Below are positions 54,154 to 61,194 of a stretch of 64,000 nucleotides of DNA, in pieces. This stretch comes from Microbispora corallina (lineage in GTDB: Bacteria; Actinomycetota; Actinomycetes; Streptosporangiales; Streptosporangiaceae): assembly GCF_016863035.1 (NCBI RefSeq), contig NZ_BOOC01000007.1, positions 62,001 through 126,000 on the forward strand. The letters are read 5' to 3'. A model generated the notes under the pieces. It saw only the letters and a program-made list of their open reading frames with translations. It was not told the DNA's origin and did no database searches. The translations under genes and the position numbers were made by a program. Each line of letters starts with the position of its first letter. Within the stretch, counting starts at the first letter, position 1.

Positions 54154-54165
54154 CCGCTCCCCGGG

Positions 54166-55923
54166 TCAGGGGCCGGCGGGCACCGCTCCCACGCTGCCGC
54201 CCCGTTCCGGCAGCCGGTGGACGAGCTCGGCGTACCGCCCGCCCTTGGCGAGCAGCTCCTCGTGCCGGCCCTGCTCCACCAGCCGCCCCTCGTGGAGGAC
54301 GAAGATGACGTCGGCCGCGCGCACCGTGTCCGGTCGATGGGTGACCACGAGGGTCGTCCGGCCCGGCAGGAGCGGCGTCAACGCCTCCTGGACCTGCCGC
54401 TCGCTCTCGGCGTCGAGGGCGGAGGTGGCCTCGTCGAGGATGAGGACGGGCGGGTCGTTCAGGATCGCCCGCGCGATGGCGAGCCGCTGCTTTTCGCCTC
54501 CGGACAGGCGCGAGCCCCGCTCGCCCACCATCGAGTCGTAGCCGTCCGGCAGCCGGACCACGCGGTCGTGGATCCGCGCCGCCCGGCAGGCGGCCTCGAG
54601 CTCGCCCGCCGTGGCCGCCGCCTTCGCGTACCGGAGATTGTCGGCGACCGTCGCGTGGAACAGGACCGGCTCCTGGGTCACGACTCCGAACAGCGCCGCC
54701 AGCGAGTCACGCGTCAGGCGGCGGACGTCGACCCCGTCCAGGGTGACCACACCCTCGTCCGGGTCGTGCAGGCGCATGACGAGATGCGCCAGCGTGGTCT
54801 TGCCCGACCCGCTTTCCCCGACGACCGCGGCGAACTGGCCCGGCCGGATCCGCAGCGTCACGTCCCGCAGGACGGCGTGCCCGCCGTACCGGAAGGTGAC
54901 GCCGGTCAGCGCGATCTCGCCGCGGACCGCGTCGCGGCGCGCGGCGACCGCCCCCGGCCCGTCCACGACGGACGGCCGCCGGTCGAGGTACTCGAAGATC
55001 CGCTCGAACACCGCCGTCGCGGCGCGGAACTGGACCGCCACCTGCATGAGCTGGCCTGCCGGGAGGAACAGGCGCGCCTGGAGCGAGGTGAAGGCCAGCA
55101 GCGTCCCCGGTGTGGGAGGCCGCCCCAGCCCCGCGGCGAGGTAGACCACGGCGGGCGCGACGAGGAAGAGGGCCTGCAGCGCCGCGCCGAGCGCCTGCGC
55201 CCCCACGGCGGCGCGGACCTGCAGCCCCGCCAGCCGGCGGCTCTCGTCCCCGAACCGCCGCACGCCGTGGTCCTGACGGCCGAAGACCCGGGCGAGCAGG
55301 ATCCCCGAGACCGACAGCGTCTCCTCGGCGATCACGTTCATCTCGGCGCGGGACCGCTGGACGGCGGCGACGACCCGGCGCTGGTGCGTCGCCACCCGCG
55401 CGGTCAGCCACGCCGCGGCGGGCAGCAGGCAGATCGAGACCAGCGCGAGCCGCCACGACAGGGCGACCAGGCACGCCGTGGTGGCGAGGCAGGTCACGAC
55501 GTTGGCGAGCATCGCGGGCACGGTCGCGCCGGCCACGCTCTGCACCTCGGCCACGTCGCCGATGACGCGGGCCTGGATCTCCCCGGTGCGGGTGCCGGTG
55601 AAGAAGGTGAGCGGCAGCCGCTGCAGGTGCGCGTACAGGTCCGTCCGCAGCCGCTCCAGCACGTCCTGGCCCATCCGGCTGGACAGGTGGGCCTGCAGCA
55701 CGCCGATCCCGCCGGCCGCCGCGGCGGCCGCGGCCGTCGCTCCGAGCAGGGCCGCGAGCAGCCCGGCCCGCGGCCCGCCGGGCGCCAGCAGGCCCTGGTC
55801 CACCATGGCCCGGGTCAGGAAGGGGACCGCCGTGCCGAGGCCGGCCGACAGCCCGATCAGGCCGGTGATCAGGAGCACCCGCCCGGCGTACGGCCGGAAG
55901 AGCGACAGCACCCTCCGGTTCAT
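54166..55923 (-). CDS. ABC exporter (fused permease-ATPase) of graspetide cluster
   Basis: A 585-aa half-transporter: six membrane helices in residues 1-310 (RVLLITGLIGLSAGLGTAVP first), then an ATPase with Walker A GESGSGKTTLA, signature RLSGGEKQRLAIARA and Walker B VLILDEATSALD. ATG 55923 overlaps the ATP-grasp TGA (ATGA), indicating coupling. It has no N-terminal C39 peptidase, so it would export a modified peptide without cutting the leader. The dedicated position makes it the probable exporter of the modified peptide; a general MsbA/LmrA-type lipid or drug exporter is the alternative. Confidence 0.9.
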   Translation of the reverse strand: MNRRVLSLFRPYAGRVLLITGLIGLSAGLGTAVPFLTRAMVDQGLLAPGGPRAGLLAALLGATAAAAAAAGGIGVLQAHLSSRMGQDVLERLRTDLYAHLQRLPLTFFTGTRTGEIQARVIGDVAEVQSVAGATVPAMLANVVTCLATTACLVALSWRLALVSICLLPAAAWLTARVATHQRRVVAAVQRSRAEMNVIAEETLSVSGILLARVFGRQDHGVRRFGDESRRLAGLQVRAAVGAQALGAALQALFLVAPAVVYLAAGLGRPPTPGTLLAFTSLQARLFLPAGQLMQVAVQFRAATAVFERIFEYLDRRPSVVDGPGAVAARRDAVRGEIALTGVTFRYGGHAVLRDVTLRIRPGQFAAVVGESGSGKTTLAHLVMRLHDPDEGVVTLDGVDVRRLTRDSLAALFGVVTQEPVLFHATVADNLRYAKAAATAGELEAACRAARIHDRVVRLPDGYDSMVGERGSRLSGGEKQRLAIARAILNDPPVLILDEATSALDAESERQVQEALTPLLPGRTTLVVTHRPDTVRAADVIFVLHEGRLVEQGRHEELLAKGGRYAELVHRLPERGGSVGAVPAGP

Positions 55924-56861
55924 CCGGCGGCTTCGCCGTAGAGGAAGTCGCAGAACGCCTCGATCAGCGGCAGCCCCGTCATGCCTTCGACGAAGAGCCA
56001 CTGGCCCTGCGGGTTGAGCTCCAGCCAGACGTACTCGCCCTCGTCCGTGAGCTTGAGGTCGAAGATCCCCATCCTCAGGTTCAGCCGCCGCAGGATCGTC
56101 CGGAGGTCGTCCTCGACACGGTCGGGCAACCGGTGCTCCTCCGCCGGGATGTCGAGGTTCGGCCGCCAGTCCAGGTCGTCGGACTCCAGGAGCGCGGCCA
56201 GCACCCGGTCCCCGAAGACCTGGGCGCGGACGTGCCGCCGTCCGGGGACGAACTCCTGGTAGATGGCCGGGCACAGGCGGATGGACGCGTCGCCGGCGAG
56301 CAGTTCCTCGCTCACCGTCGCCGTGGCGACCGGAGCCCGCATCACCCCGTGGACGGCCTTGACGACCGCTCCCGGATGGGCGGCGCAGAACTCGCGCACC
56401 CGCTCCGGCGACTGGCTGACCAGCGTCCGCGGGATCCGCACCCCGAGATCGTGGGCCGCGCGGAGCTGGACGATCTTGTTCTGCGCGTCCCAGAACGACG
56501 CGGGGTGGTCGACCCACCGGCCCCTGAACTCGGACAGCAGCATGCCCAGCGCGGCGGTGGCGGTGTCGACGTCGATGAGCTCACGGTCGACGGGGTCGGT
56601 CACCTCCGGATTGGCCGAGGTGCGGGGGTTGCCGAGCCGCCGGAACCAGATGAGGTCGGCGGTGCCGAGATCCACGGCCGTCCCGTCGGCGGCGGGGAAC
56701 ACGGGGCGGACGAGCCCCTGGGGAGACCAGCTGAGACCGGGCTCGCGGCCGAAGCGGTCGCTCTCGAAGATGTGGACGGTCGCCGGGTGACGGCGCTCGA
56801 GCTCCGCCTTCACGGCGTGGGCGTGCAGGTCGCGCTCATGCGTGACGACGCCGATGCGCAC
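55920..56861 (-). CDS. MvdC/MvdD-like ATP-grasp ligase (graspetide synthetase)
   Basis: A 313-aa ATP-grasp enzyme. The N-terminal pre-ATP-grasp domain (VVTHERDLHAHAVKAEL, ADLIWFRRLGNPRTS, VDHPASFWDAQNKIVQLRAA) and the catalytic part (AVVKAVHG, YQEFVPGRRHVRAQVFGDRV, FDLKLTDEGEYVWLELNPQG, WLFVEGMTGLPLIEAF) match microviridin/graspetide ligases, which phosphorylate Asp or Glu side chains and join them to Ser/Thr or Lys to form macrocyclic esters or amides. Metal ligands Asp in FDLKL and Glu and Asn in LELNP are intact. GTG 56861 is preferred because AGGAG lies six bases upstream; ATG 56882 and GTG 56900 are alternatives. It follows the precursor gene directly and overlaps the exporter. Confidence 0.88.
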   Translation of the reverse strand: MRIGVVTHERDLHAHAVKAELERRHPATVHIFESDRFGREPGLSWSPQGLVRPVFPAADGTAVDLGTADLIWFRRLGNPRTSANPEVTDPVDRELIDVDTATAALGMLLSEFRGRWVDHPASFWDAQNKIVQLRAAHDLGVRIPRTLVSQSPERVREFCAAHPGAVVKAVHGVMRAPVATATVSEELLAGDASIRLCPAIYQEFVPGRRHVRAQVFGDRVLAALLESDDLDWRPNLDIPAEEHRLPDRVEDDLRTILRRLNLRMGIFDLKLTDEGEYVWLELNPQGQWLFVEGMTGLPLIEAFCDFLYGEAAG

Positions 56862-56899
56862 GGCCTTCTCCTGGACACGCATGAGCGCGACCCCCCTCA

Positions 56900-57124
56900 C
56901 TAGCCTCGGGCCGGCATGTAGTCGCAGTCGTCCCAGCCGTCACCCGAGCCGCTGATGGTCTCGTCCGGGTGCAGGTCGGGGCACGCCTCGATGTCGTACG
57001 CGCGGTCAAGCGCGAGCCGCTCGATCAGGTCGCGCTCCCACCGGGCGAGAGCCGGGGCCGGGGCCGGCCTCATCCGCTCCCGGCCCACGAAGATCGCGGG
57101 CCGTACCTGCGTGTCAACCGCCAT
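56900..57124 (-). CDS. Graspetide precursor peptide
   Basis: A 74-aa peptide, MAVDTQVRPAIFVGRER at the start, a helical leader ARWERDLIERLALDR (28-42), and an acidic C-terminus with hydroxyl donors Thr56, Ser58 and Ser60 followed by acceptors Asp62, Asp65, Asp66 and Asp68 in ISGSGDGWDDCDYMPARG. Donors before acceptors is the graspetide core rule. Cys48 and Cys67 could form a disulfide. ATG 57124 is preceded by GGAAGGG at 10 bases and GAGG at 2. The TAG stop abuts the ligase reading frame. Family not recognised; assigned as precursor from size, composition and position before the ligase. Confidence 0.78.
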   Translation of the reverse strand: MAVDTQVRPAIFVGRERMRPAPAPALARWERDLIERLALDRAYDIEACPDLHPDETISGSGDGWDDCDYMPARG

Positions 57125-57233
57125 CGCCTCATCCCTTCCGTACAGGCGGACGCGGGTTCGTCCGTCTGCCGGGATCGTCGCGGCACGCGGTTGTGAGTCG
57201 TTTGGAGGACGGTTGCGTCCGGATGGGACTGCG

Positions 57234-57247
57234 GAACTTGCGTTCGA
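57234..57247. promoter_or_regulatory. SOS (LexA) box 1
   Basis: GAAC-TTGC-GTTC followed by GA fits the actinobacterial LexA consensus CGAACNNNNGTTCG except for G in place of the first C. It lies in the divergent region between the graspetide precursor and the dnaE2 operon, 22 bp start to start from box 2. Confidence 0.75.
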
Positions 57248-57255
57248 GCTGCTGG

Positions 57256-57269
57256 GAACGTATGTTCGA
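57256..57269. promoter_or_regulatory. SOS (LexA) box 2
   Basis: GAAC-GTAT-GTTC followed by GA, same consensus and orientation as box 1. It lies 76 bases before the DUF6504 start. Tandem boxes two helical turns apart would bind LexA dimers on one face of the DNA. Confidence 0.8.
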
Positions 57270-57344
57270 AGTAGCGGCAATTCTGACCGAATTATCCGCC
57301 CGTCTTCCCCCGGGTGGCCACGCAGCCACAAGGGAGAAGGGGCC

Positions 57345-57611
57345 TTGAGCAGACTTTACGGCGAACCGATCGAGGTGTGGGTCCGGGACGGTCAGCCCGC
57401 TCAGTTCGTCTGGCGCGACCGCCTCTACGCCGTCCGCGAGGTGCAGGACCACTGGGTCGTCGCCCGCGAGTGGTGGAAGACCTCCGACGCCGATCCCGGT
57501 GAGCGGCGCTTCTGGCGCGTGGAGGCCGCCTCGGGCCGGCAGGTCGGCACGTACGAGCTGCGCTTCGACACGGCCGGCGACGGCTGGCTCCTGCTGAGGG
57601 CATGGGATTGA
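57345..57611 (+). CDS. DUF6504-type mutasome-associated small protein
   Basis: An 88-aa protein: MSRLYGEPIEVWVRDGQPAQ, FVWRDRLYAVREVQDHWVVA, REWWKTSD and YELRFDTAGDGWLLLRAWD. Small Trp-rich proteins of this type are encoded next to imuA/imuB or dnaE2 in actinobacteria. TTG 57345 is the start, with GGAGAAGGGG immediately upstream. Its TGA overlaps the ATG of a 27-aa frame, and the operon continues into dnaE2, so it probably serves in translesion synthesis. Confidence 0.85.
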   Translation: MSRLYGEPIEVWVRDGQPAQFVWRDRLYAVREVQDHWVVAREWWKTSDADPGERRFWRVEAASGRQVGTYELRFDTAGDGWLLLRAWD

Positions 57612-57694
57612 TGGGAACGCTCCAGGTTCCCGCCGCCGCGGGCGGGCCGGTACGCGCGACGGGGACGGTCCGCGCGGAGGGGAGGCCGGGCTGA
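57611..57694 (+). CDS. 27-aa mini-ORF bridging DUF6504 and dnaE2
   Basis: ATG 57611 overlaps the DUF6504 stop and its TGA overlaps the dnaE2 ATG, a double TGATG arrangement. It encodes MGTLQVPAAAGGPVRATG and nine more residues, low complexity. It may simply couple translation across the junction, or be the vestige of a lost gene such as imuB. Confidence 0.4.
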   Translation: MGTLQVPAAAGGPVRATGTVRAEGRPG

Positions 57695-60600
57695 TGGCGT
57701 CGTTCACACACCTGCACACCGCGTCCGCCTTCTCGCTGCGGTACGGCACGGCGTTCCCCGAGGCCCTGGTCCGCCGGGCGGCCGAGCACGGCATGGACGC
57801 GCTGGCGCTGACCGACCGGGACGGCCTGTACGGCGCGGTCAAGCACATCCGGGCCTGCCACGGCACGGGCCTGACCCCTGTCGTCGGCGTCGACCTCGCG
57901 CTCGACGGCGGCCCCGCGAGCCGCGGCAGGCGGGGCGACCCCCCGCGGATCGTCGTGCTGGCCCGCTCCGGCGGCTGGGGGGCCCTGTGCCGCCTCGTGA
58001 CGGCCGCCCACCACGCCGGGGAGCGCGGCGAGCCGTACGTCACGCCGGGGATGGTGGCCGAGCACGCGACCGGCCCGGACGGCGAGCCGCTGCTCGTGGT
58101 CATGCTCGGCCCCCGTTCGGGCGTCGGGCGGGCCGTCGCCGAGCGGCGGGACGACCAGGCCCGCTCCCTGCTGGCCGCCTGGCGCTCGGTCGTGCCCGAT
58201 CTCGTGGTCGAGGTCGCCGACCTGTACGGCTACCGCGACGCGAACATCGCCGCGCGCATGGCGGGGCTCGCCGACTCGATGGGCGTGCCGGTCGTGCTGA
58301 CCAACGCGGTCCGCTACCTGGACGCCGCCGACCACCAGGTGGGCGACGTGCTCGACGCGGCCCGCAAGCTCGTGCCCCTCGACGGACGGCACCTGGACCA
58401 CCCGACGGCCCACGCGTACCTGAAGGACGGCGCCGAGATGGCCCGGATCGCCGCCCGGATCTGCGGCGGCGACCCCGGCCGCGCGGAGCGACTGCTGGCC
58501 GAGACCCGCCGCGTCGCGGAGCGGTGCGCGCTCGACCCCGTCGGGATCGTCCCCCTCCTCGACCCCGTCGACCCCCGGCTCCACCTGCCCGAGACGGACG
58601 CCGACCCGGTCCCGCTGCTGCGGCGCAGGTGCGAGGACGGGCTCGGCCGGCGGGGCCTGGACCGGTCGCGCGATGCGCGGGACCGCCTGGCCGCCGAGCT
58701 CGCGGTGATCGAGAGGAAGCGGCTGTCCGGATACTTCGTGGCGGTCTCCGGGATCACCGACATGATCCGCTCGCTGGGCATCCGCTGCGCGATCCGCGGC
58801 TCGGGCGCGGGGTGCCTGGTGAACTATCTGATCGGCATCGGCGAGGTGAACCCGCTCGACCACGGCCTGCTGATGGAGCGCTTCCTGTCCGAGGGCCGCC
58901 GGGGGCTGCCCGACATCGACATCGACGTCGAGTCCGCCCGCCGCCTCGACTGCTACCGGGCCATCCTCGACCGGTACGGCGAGGCCCGCGTGGCGTGCGT
59001 CTCGATGATGGAGACCTACCGCGCCCGCAGCGCCATCCGGGACGTCGGGTCGGCGATGGGCCTGCCGCCGCACGAGATCGACGTCATCGCCAAGGCGTTC
59101 CCGCAGGTGCGGGCCAAGCAGATCAGGGCCGCGCTGTCCGACCTGCCCGAGCTGCGGGACAGCGGGCTGAACGACCGGTCGCTGCAGGCCGTGTTCCGGC
59201 TGGCCGAACGGCTCGACGGGCTGCCCCGGCACATCGCCCTGCACCCCTGCGGCGTGCTGGTCGGCAACTCCTCGCTCCGCGAGCGCACGCCGGTCGAGCG
59301 GAGCCTGCTCGACTTCCCGATGTCGCAGTTCGACAAGGACGACGTCGAGGAGGCGGGGCTGCTCAAGCTCGACGTCCTCGGCGTGCGCATGCAGTCCGCG
59401 CTGGCCTACTCCCTCCAGGAGATCGAGCGGGTGGACGGCCGGCGGATCGACCTCGACGCGGTCCCGCACGACGACGCCGGGACCTACGACCTCATCCGCG
59501 TCAGCCGCACGCTCGGGTGCTTCCAGATCGAGTCGCCCGGGCAGCGGGAGCTGGTGGCGAAGCTGGAGCCCCGCACCATGCACGACCTGATCGTGGACAT
59601 CTCGCTGTTCCGGCCGGGGCCGGTCAACTCCGACATGGTCACGCCGTACCTGGAGACCCGGCACGGCTTCCGCGAGCCGCAGTACCCGCACGAGAGCCTC
59701 CGGGAGGCGCTGCGCGAGACCAACGGCGTGGTCGTCTTCCACGAGCAGGTCCTCAAGGTCATCGACGTCATGACCGAGTGCGGGCTGTCGGAGGCGGAGC
59801 GGGCCCGCCGCGGCCTCGGCACGCCGGAGGGCCGCGAGGCCGTCCGCGCCTGGTTCGTCCCGCTCGCCCGGGAGAAGGGCTTCCCCGAGGCGACGGTGGA
59901 GCGGGCCTGGCACGTGCTCGACGCGTTCGGCGGGTTCGGGTTCTGCAAGGCGCACGCGGCGGCGTTCGCGCTGCCCACCTACCAGTCGGCCTGGCTGAAG
60001 CGGCACCACTCGGCGGCGTTCTTCGCCGGCGTGCTCACCCACGAGCCCGGCATGTACCCCAACCGGGTCATCCTCGACGAGGCCCGCCAGTGCGGCGTGG
60101 AGATCCTGCCGCTGGACGTCAACCGCTCGGGGGAGAGCTGGCTCGTGGAGCGGACCGGCCCGGTGCCGCCGCGCCGGCCGGGCGAGCTGCGCGTGGACGA
60201 GCTCGGCCGGGGGTACGGCCTGCGCGTGCCGTTCTCGGCCGTCAAGGGGATCAGTGACGCCGAGGTGGCCCGGATGGTGGCGGGCCGGCCCTACACCTCG
60301 CTCGCCGACTTCTGGGAGCGGGCCCGCCCCTCCCGGCCGGTGGCGGAGCGGATCGTGGAGGTCGGCGGGTTCGACGCGCTGCACGGGCTGCGGCCGGGGG
60401 AGCCGCGGTGGCGGCCGGGTGAGCTGACGCGGCGCGACCTGGTCGCGCAGGTCGGCGCGCTGGAGCGGGCCTCCGCGACCGGCGTCACGGCGGGGTCGGC
60501 GGTCCAGCTGCCCATGGAGTTCACCGACCGGGTCACGCCGGGGGAGCTGCCGGAGATGACCGAGGCCGAGGCCGTGGAGGCCGAGCTGGCGATCCTCGGC

Positions 60601-61194
60601 ATGGACGTCAGCCGCCACGTGATGGCTTTCCACGGCGACCTGCTCGACGCGATCGGCGTGACCCGGGCGAGGGACCTGCTGACGTGCAGGAACGGCGCCG
60701 AGATCCTGGTGGCCGGGGTCAAGGTGGCCACCCAGACCCCCGCCGTGCGGTCGGGCCAGCGGGTCATCTTCGCCACCCTGGACGACTCGACCGGCCCGGT
60801 CGACCTGACGTTCTTCGAGTCGGTGCAGGGGCACACGGCGGCGACCGTCTTCGGCTCGTGGATGCTGGTCGCCAGAGGCGTGGTCCGGCGGACCGGGGGC
60901 AGGGCGGTCTCGCTGCGCGCCCTGCACTGCTGGAACCTCGTGGACCTCGACTGGCTGTGGCGCACCCAGGGGATCGACGCGGTCCGAGCCGTGCTGAGCG
61001 AGACGCCCGCGCCCGGCGGCGGGGTGGGCGGACGGCCCGTCGAGTACGGCAACGGGTTCCGCGTGTCGCCCTACTCGGACAACGGGGCACCGCCCGCCGC
61101 CGGCGAAGGCCGGTTCCTCGGCCGGCCCGGGGAGCCCCAGCGCCGGCTCTGGCACGCCAGCTCCGGAAGCTCGGGCCCGACCTCCGGCCGCTGA
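57694..61194 (+). CDS. dnaE2: Error-prone DNA polymerase DnaE2
   Basis: An 1166-aa C-family polymerase. PHP domain at the N-terminus (FTHLHTASAFSLRYGTAF), palm with catalytic Asp407 and Asp409 in GLPDIDIDVES, DEEVGL-like DDVEEAGLLKLDVLGVR, the finger helix-hairpin-helix region, and a C-terminal OB fold (EILVAGVKVATQTPAV, VIFATLDDSTGPVDL). Its length and PHP differences match DnaE2 rather than replicative DnaE1 (usually nearer 1180 with intact PHP). ATG 57694 has GGAGGGGAGG upstream. The operon start carries two SOS boxes, as expected for damage-induced mutagenesis; its usual partners ImuA and ImuB are not in the window. Confidence 0.95.
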   Translation: MASFTHLHTASAFSLRYGTAFPEALVRRAAEHGMDALALTDRDGLYGAVKHIRACHGTGLTPVVGVDLALDGGPASRGRRGDPPRIVVLARSGGWGALCRLVTAAHHAGERGEPYVTPGMVAEHATGPDGEPLLVVMLGPRSGVGRAVAERRDDQARSLLAAWRSVVPDLVVEVADLYGYRDANIAARMAGLADSMGVPVVLTNAVRYLDAADHQVGDVLDAARKLVPLDGRHLDHPTAHAYLKDGAEMARIAARICGGDPGRAERLLAETRRVAERCALDPVGIVPLLDPVDPRLHLPETDADPVPLLRRRCEDGLGRRGLDRSRDARDRLAAELAVIERKRLSGYFVAVSGITDMIRSLGIRCAIRGSGAGCLVNYLIGIGEVNPLDHGLLMERFLSEGRRGLPDIDIDVESARRLDCYRAILDRYGEARVACVSMMETYRARSAIRDVGSAMGLPPHEIDVIAKAFPQVRAKQIRAALSDLPELRDSGLNDRSLQAVFRLAERLDGLPRHIALHPCGVLVGNSSLRERTPVERSLLDFPMSQFDKDDVEEAGLLKLDVLGVRMQSALAYSLQEIERVDGRRIDLDAVPHDDAGTYDLIRVSRTLGCFQIESPGQRELVAKLEPRTMHDLIVDISLFRPGPVNSDMVTPYLETRHGFREPQYPHESLREALRETNGVVVFHEQVLKVIDVMTECGLSEAERARRGLGTPEGREAVRAWFVPLAREKGFPEATVERAWHVLDAFGGFGFCKAHAAAFALPTYQSAWLKRHHSAAFFAGVLTHEPGMYPNRVILDEARQCGVEILPLDVNRSGESWLVERTGPVPPRRPGELRVDELGRGYGLRVPFSAVKGISDAEVARMVAGRPYTSLADFWERARPSRPVAERIVEVGGFDALHGLRPGEPRWRPGELTRRDLVAQVGALERASATGVTAGSAVQLPMEFTDRVTPGELPEMTEAEAVEAELAILGMDVSRHVMAFHGDLLDAIGVTRARDLLTCRNGAEILVAGVKVATQTPAVRSGQRVIFATLDDSTGPVDLTFFESVQGHTAATVFGSWMLVARGVVRRTGGRAVSLRALHCWNLVDLDWLWRTQGIDAVRAVLSETPAPGGGVGGRPVEYGNGFRVSPYSDNGAPPAAGEGRFLGRPGEPQRRLWHASSGSSGPTSGR

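Follow-up and report, generated by a model that had tools for sequence, protein, structure and literature searches.

Small reading frames beside an ATP-grasp ligase gene raise the question of whether they encode peptides that the ligase modifies. In the stretch of Microbispora corallina DNA analyzed here (the window, 64,000 nucleotides of an 8.36-Mb draft genome), the frame in question lies at 56900 to 57124 on the minus strand, and the question is whether it encodes a graspetide precursor and, if so, how the rings of the product might be arranged. Graspetides are ribosomally made peptides in which Ser or Thr side chains are joined to Asp or Glu side chains. The frame very likely is a graspetide precursor gene, because the ligase beside it has the MdnC/PsnB fold and conserved active-site residues, an exporter gene comes next, and the three genes form a discrete cassette. 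We consider it highly probable that the best explanation for the locus is a graspetide precursor heading a compact precursor-ligase-exporter cassette, with a ring chemistry that we infer.

The precursor gene starts at ATG 57124, stops at 56900-56902, and encodes 74 amino acids with the translation MAVDTQVRPAIFVGRERMRPAPAPALARWERDLIERLALDRAYDIEACPDLHPDETISGSGDGWDDCDYMPARG, the tail of which reads HPDETISGSGDGWDDCD (window minus strand). A preliminary description of this DNA had placed the frame and numbered C48, T56, S58, S60, D62, W64, D65, D66, C67, D68, and Y69 correctly. Alignment of nine sequences divides the peptide into a leader block (residues 1 to 40; 57005 to 57124, minus strand) that contains an RPAI[FY] motif, a spacer (residues 41 to 51; 56972 to 57004, minus strand) that carries the strain-specific Cys48, and a core (residues 52 to 68; 56921 to 56971, minus strand) with the pattern HP[DN]ETISGSG[DG][GD]WDDCD. 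Two of the spacer residues are an insertion unique to the window sequence. Leader residues V7-R8-P9-A10-I11 are constant in all nine sequences, and the RPAI[FY] motif is of the 'Phhx(1,2)h' leader motif type described in PMC8939145. The peptide thereby combines a conserved leader motif with C-terminal Ser/Thr donors and Asp acceptors, the combination by which precursors of this class are recognized. A low-confidence structure model predicted a helix at residues 23 to 47 and, for the unmodified precursor, no hairpin in the core (pLDDT of about 47 there). The precursor had no family match in NCBIfam or Pfam and no obvious Gly-Gly site ahead of the core. Plasmid carriage was considered and dropped, the precursor having no match in PLSDB.

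Relatives of the precursor are few. A peptide search of 297 genomes of the family recovered eight, all at E ≤ 2.4e-25 and 64 to 75% identical to the window sequence. One of these eight genomes gave an extra partial match (E of 3.7e-7), and the remaining matches, which start at an E of 0.002, look like chance. A profile search placed the precursor in 9 of 341 family genomes, its own included, and in 5 of 68 genera. Among 394 genomes of the class, a profile search found its own genome, two of the eight relatives, and one weak partial match (genome G430, E of 5e-4). When the core patterns were scanned against the genome_contigs collection, described as covering 84,980 species, 42 stretches were returned, 6 of which encode relatives, in T. 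echinospora, Nonomuraea sp. G32, P. thailandica, A. macrotermitis, A. hibisca, and A. flavalba. The genera with named relatives, Thermomonospora, Nonomuraea, Planotetraspora, and Actinomadura, belong to the same GTDB family, which we take to be Streptosporangiaceae as GTDB defines it.

Variation among the nine sequences is unevenly distributed, with 3 of 17 columns variable in the core, 16 of 40 in residues 1 to 40, and all 9 in residues 43 to 51. Part of the spacer contrast is due to the window strain alone because the figures were milder once its sequence was removed (3 of 17, 13 of 40, and 5 of 9, respectively, for the eight relatives). The core was still the least variable region without the window sequence, and the leader is also well conserved, with 24 of its 40 residues constant in the nine sequences and 27 in the eight relatives alone. 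Fourteen core residues (H52, P53, E55, T56, I57, S58, G59, S60, G61, W64, D65, D66, C67, and D68) are constant in all nine sequences, and codon-only, synonymous variation was found at 4 of these 14 positions. Long open frames are plentiful in high-GC DNA, which is the argument for a frame that lies next to the ligase by chance. However, the frame is conserved, with synonymous change, at the same place in nine species, which refutes this explanation and leaves it a negligible probability.

The Thr, Ser, and Asp columns that the preliminary description had offered as a graspetide-type core, with alignment of homologues as its own check, are kept in the relatives, and the proposal passed that check. 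Its details fared unevenly. Its Asp acceptors stand for D65, D66, and D68, which are fixed, but not for D62, because D62-G63 becomes G62-D63 in Actinomadura flavalba; the only other change in the core is D or N at position 54. The core had been described as having no Glu, whereas the invariant E55 directly precedes T56. Tyr69, also singled out, is Ala in two of the nine sequences, and the tail past residue 68 is free, with Y or A at 69 and differing ends. A disulfide between Cys48 and Cys67 can be ruled out as a family feature: Cys48 is confined to the window strain, and the eight relatives have a single Cys, at 67. The nine sequences are closely related, so an invariant column is not enough to mark a residue as donor or acceptor, and the evidence for a ring role of E55, D62, and D65 is ambiguous.

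The precursor is followed, after a gap of 17 nt if the ligase is taken to start at ATG 56882, by a gene for an ATP-grasp graspetide synthetase (55920 to 56882, minus strand; 320 amino acids from the conserved ATG). All nine loci have this ATG at the equivalent position of the protein; the listed reading frame opens at GTG 56900. The best NCBIfam model, and the best curated model for this ligase, was TIGR04187, for SAV_5884-type actinobacterial synthetases (E of 1e-51), with a score of 176.1 bits that is half of the curated cut-off of 350 bits. The MvdC/MvdD models (TIGR04185 and TIGR04184) gave 139.2 and 114.1 bits, short of their cut-offs of 425 and 475. The ligase thus matched four models of graspetide-type ligases without reaching the cut-off of any, and it scored below Pfam gathering scores too. 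The PDB yielded six sequence matches at E ≤ 0.001, every one a graspetide synthetase (MdnB, AMdnB, MdnC, PruB, PsnB, and CdnC), with MdnB 5ig8 at the top (E of 2e-37). The same six proteins, in the order MdnC, AMdnB, PruB, MdnB, PsnB, and CdnC, were the best fold matches of a structure model of the ligase (pLDDT of 88.6) built from 24 sequences, followed by RimK, ArgX, and LysX. Of the 24 ligases, nine belong to this clade and 15 come from the 27 distant loci fetched, and K136, D238xR240, and E288xN290 are among the residues invariant across them. Presumably these residues relate to ATP, leader, and magnesium.

The 9 of 341 family genomes with the precursor are also the ones with a close ligase (E ≤ 1e-45), and no ligase fell between this clade and an E of 1e-45 in those genomes. 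The next ligases among the 394 class genomes scored at most 140 bits, with 36 to 41% identity over the aligned part. A ligase of the MdnC/PsnB type adjoins the precursor in all eight relatives, as it does in the window. The M. corallina genome also encodes a second, distant graspetide-type ligase on another contig (G000:C15:84394-85176; loci L002 and L041), 35% identical, and a small reading frame near it ends QRPESGFVCSALNGSSSGDCWDM.

The third gene of the cassette (54166 to 55923, minus strand) encodes an ABC exporter with a membrane domain and an ATPase, and its ATG overlaps the ligase stop codon (ATGA). Ligase and exporter homologues follow the precursor at all eight relative loci; both are 71 to 79% identical to those of the window, and in the same tblastn comparison the precursors are 64 to 73% identical. 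When the nine loci were compared all against all, the matches linking at least three loci fall inside the cassette, among the matches listed; the exception is a distant ABC-type match of about 35% elsewhere in the window. Actinomadura flavalba has a second precursor-like gene upstream (L040:6232-6423, minus strand), in which the leader is kept (VRPAI, PAPELAQWERDL) and the end differs (HPPYQTPTWCHGILDDLI). The presence of one ligase beside two cores fits a leader-guided enzyme.

The extent of the cassette, 54165 to 57235 (3.07 kb), was judged against a congener without it, G178, in which the flanks are adjacent and 46 bp stand in place of the window's 54165-57235. The precursor and close ligase were missing, at the thresholds used, from the other 14 genomes of the genus, and none of the eight congener stretches examined contained cassette genes. 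Flank spacing in these eight varied: adjacent in G178, 3 to 7 kb apart in four, and three without the DUF6504 gene in the stretch. Seven of them (L099-L103, L105, and L106) have other DNA after the GntR gene or are missing the DUF6504 neighbor. The site seems to be a variable spot. Its content differs between congeners, and the cassette appears to come and go as one piece. Among the relatives, Planotetraspora is the only one whose locus, in the stretch examined, has the flanks of the window, with GntR on one side and DUF6504 and DnaE2 on the other.

Boxes resembling LexA sites, GAACTTGCGTTC and GAACGTATGTTC, lie within 57234-57267, before the DUF6504 and DnaE2-like genes (57345-61194), which are divergent from the graspetide cassette. 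The box GAACGTATGTTC at 57256 to 57267, which we take to be LexA-like, is outside the cassette. SOS control of the cassette through this box was not favored: of the eight relative loci examined, seven lack the DUF6504-DnaE2 genes and Planotetraspora alone has them.

With these components, maturation might proceed as follows. The ligase would dock on the RPAI[FY] motif of the leader and phosphorylate core Asp side chains, which T56, S58, and S60 would then attack to form esters. The rungs would be T56-D68 and S58-D66, with S60-D65 as a possible third and G61-[DG]-[GD] as the turn, and two to three dehydrations would therefore be expected. The leader would then be removed by a protease encoded elsewhere, and the exporter would secrete the product. 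Cleavage is assigned to a protease encoded elsewhere because the three-gene cassette contains no leader peptidase and the exporter, in which a peptidase domain was not matched, has an alignment to the peptidase-containing NHLM model that starts no earlier than profile position 158.

The ring topology favored in this scheme, a nested hairpin ladder centered on position 62, is tentative, and we put it somewhat short of an even chance. Positions 56/68, 58/66, and 60/64 are symmetric about 62, and in such a hairpin W64 would face S60. To judge from the alignment, D62 seems to belong to the turn and not to anchor a ring, since the A. flavalba variant shifts the Asp within the presumed turn. The main rival is an interlocked, cage-like pattern similar to that of rosaritide, for example S58/S60-D68 together with T56-D65/D66, which is conceivable but on balance doubtful. 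Three donors and three fixed Asp residues (D65, D66, and D68) would permit it, and rosaritide, which is also an actinomycete product, joins S8-D22, S9-D26, and T11-D24 according to PMC13097080. However, the symmetry of T56/S58 and D68/D66 about position 62 argues against interlocking, as does the location of the sole positional shift (GDG to GGD) in the presumed turn, and fuscimiditide, amycolimiditide, and OEP6-1 are nested according to PMC12291112.

The constancy of Cys67 in all nine sequences, and the single Cys in the second A. flavalba core, might reflect participation in the chemistry, either in a thioester to Asp or in an intermolecular disulfide, which would make the product more than an ester-linked graspetide. 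Non-native thioesters are possible with some graspetide synthetases (PMC13097080). Yet an internal disulfide would need another conserved Cys, which is missing, and no sulfur enzyme is among the conserved precursor, ligase, and exporter, and we regard a role for Cys67 as improbable. Another reading is that the small frame encodes a small protein that partners or regulates the ligase or the exporter, with an acidic tail that binds metal. By eye, the D/G-rich tail does resemble metal-binding loops. Nevertheless, the combination of an RP-hydrophobic leader motif with a frozen tail, the second A. flavalba gene, which shares the leader but not the core, and the position next to a ligase with the graspetide-synthetase fold make a partner protein very improbable.

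A new element noticed in this analysis, with moderate support, is a hairpin in the 5' untranslated region (57131 to 57175, minus strand; folds of 63-nt stretches) whose outer arm can pair with the Shine-Dalgarno region of the precursor gene. When the 63 nt up to the ATG were folded, all nine loci gave an inner stem resembling GGCGGACG/CGTCCGCC, and the outer arm pairs the Shine-Dalgarno region in eight of them, with only three pairs at its edge in the ninth (L033). The outer arms vary in sequence while pairing is kept, as in AUCCC/GGGAU in the window and UCUUUCU/GGAAAGG in A. flavalba. Folding z-scores of the nine loci ranged from -1.20 to -3.85. As a group, the nine 5' regions fell below 61 control starts from the same loci (control mean z of -0.08), with a p of 9e-6 that ignores relatedness and is too small because the nine sequences are related. 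The control starts were picked mechanically from long open frames, and some are perhaps not true genes. Covariation was weak, with both-side change in one of seven pairs of an automatic alignment, perhaps from misaligned hairpin arms. When 75-nt stretches are folded, L033 and L035 take different minimum-energy structures and the outer arm of the window pairs otherwise; the mean pairing probability of the Shine-Dalgarno window was 0.48 to 0.73. The signal was absent at the second A. flavalba precursor (z of -0.94). A known RNA family in the 5' region was dropped as a candidate, Rfam having returned none at E ≤ 1 in 56850-57400.

One possibility is that the hairpin, lying over the Shine-Dalgarno region in the RNA, limits how much precursor is translated until it is opened by some signal. 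We view such a translational gate as possible, without quite expecting it. The alternative is that the 5' element is a DNA operator for a repressor. The combination of a graspetide with a riboswitch was not found in the literature searched, and the only paper there that mentions both graspetides and a Shine-Dalgarno sequence is a metagenome-mining study.

If the ladder is true, the product would be a compact all-Asp ester scaffold with a donor at every second residue, made by a single ligase with no other modifying enzyme in the cassette, which would make it a convenient system for enzymologists and peptide engineers. At 3.1 kb the cassette is small; it is also discrete and present in only 9 of 341 family genomes, so that close relatives can be compared for its presence or absence. 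If the hairpin over the ribosome-binding site is real, what switches on translation of the precursor becomes a testable question. The general picture of graspetides is unchanged, and the locus is of interest mainly to specialists.

No name for this graspetide family, and none of its core sequence strings, turned up in the literature searched. The family might lie outside the published groups, distinguished by a Thr-x-Ser-x-Ser/Trp-x-Asp-x-Asp ester ladder, an invariant Cys as a reactive handle, and hairpin-gated translation, but this full combination is unlikely. Microviridins have their own core motif and are made with two ligases. The ligase described here is related in fold and sequence to those of the microviridin system (MdnA with MdnB/MdnC), whereas core and leader differ, the core at residues 52 to 68 is without Lys, and there is one ligase rather than two. 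Small reading frames near the 28 next-closest ligase loci, collected in a rough scan, included nine with an EL[DN]E-type leader ending GG and unlike tails (L058, L059, L060, L061, L063, L064, L066, L067, and L068); the filter yielded none at some loci and can miss or mistake genes. The ligase network of PMC13097080 uses an alignment-score cut-off of 70 and new groups of at least 20 members. A score of 140 bits corresponds to an alignment score of about 37, below 70, and the clade would therefore stand alone in that network. The clade might nevertheless belong to one of the numbered graspetide groups 1 to 43, or be too small for a number of its own.

Rosaritide (group 21), as presented in PMC13097080, is similar in having Ser/Ser/Thr donors and three Asp acceptors, in being joined entirely by esters, and in coming from an actinomycete. 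It differs in its wider donor-acceptor spacing and in having a PpiC-type partner and a peptidase-containing transporter, both of which are missing from this cassette. Fuscimiditide and amycolimiditide, the graspimiditides of group 13, have the leader motif RPFG in place of RPAI[FY] (PMC13003496 and PMC12291112), and ThfB is thought to bind the RPFG motif (PMC13003496). Donors are four residues apart in these two peptides and two apart here. For the PIMT that marks graspimiditides, the TIGR04188 model had seven weak matches in the M. corallina genome, none above the cut-off and, among the matches listed, none on the window's contig (C7). The ladder proposed here is similar to fuscimiditide, which according to PMC13003496 and PMC12291112 has Thr donors, Asp acceptors, and a nested stem-loop; OEP6-1 and amycolimiditide form nested stem-loops of a comparable kind (PMC12291112). 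Set beside these systems, the peptides described here are a small graspetide family, a further variant inside a known class.
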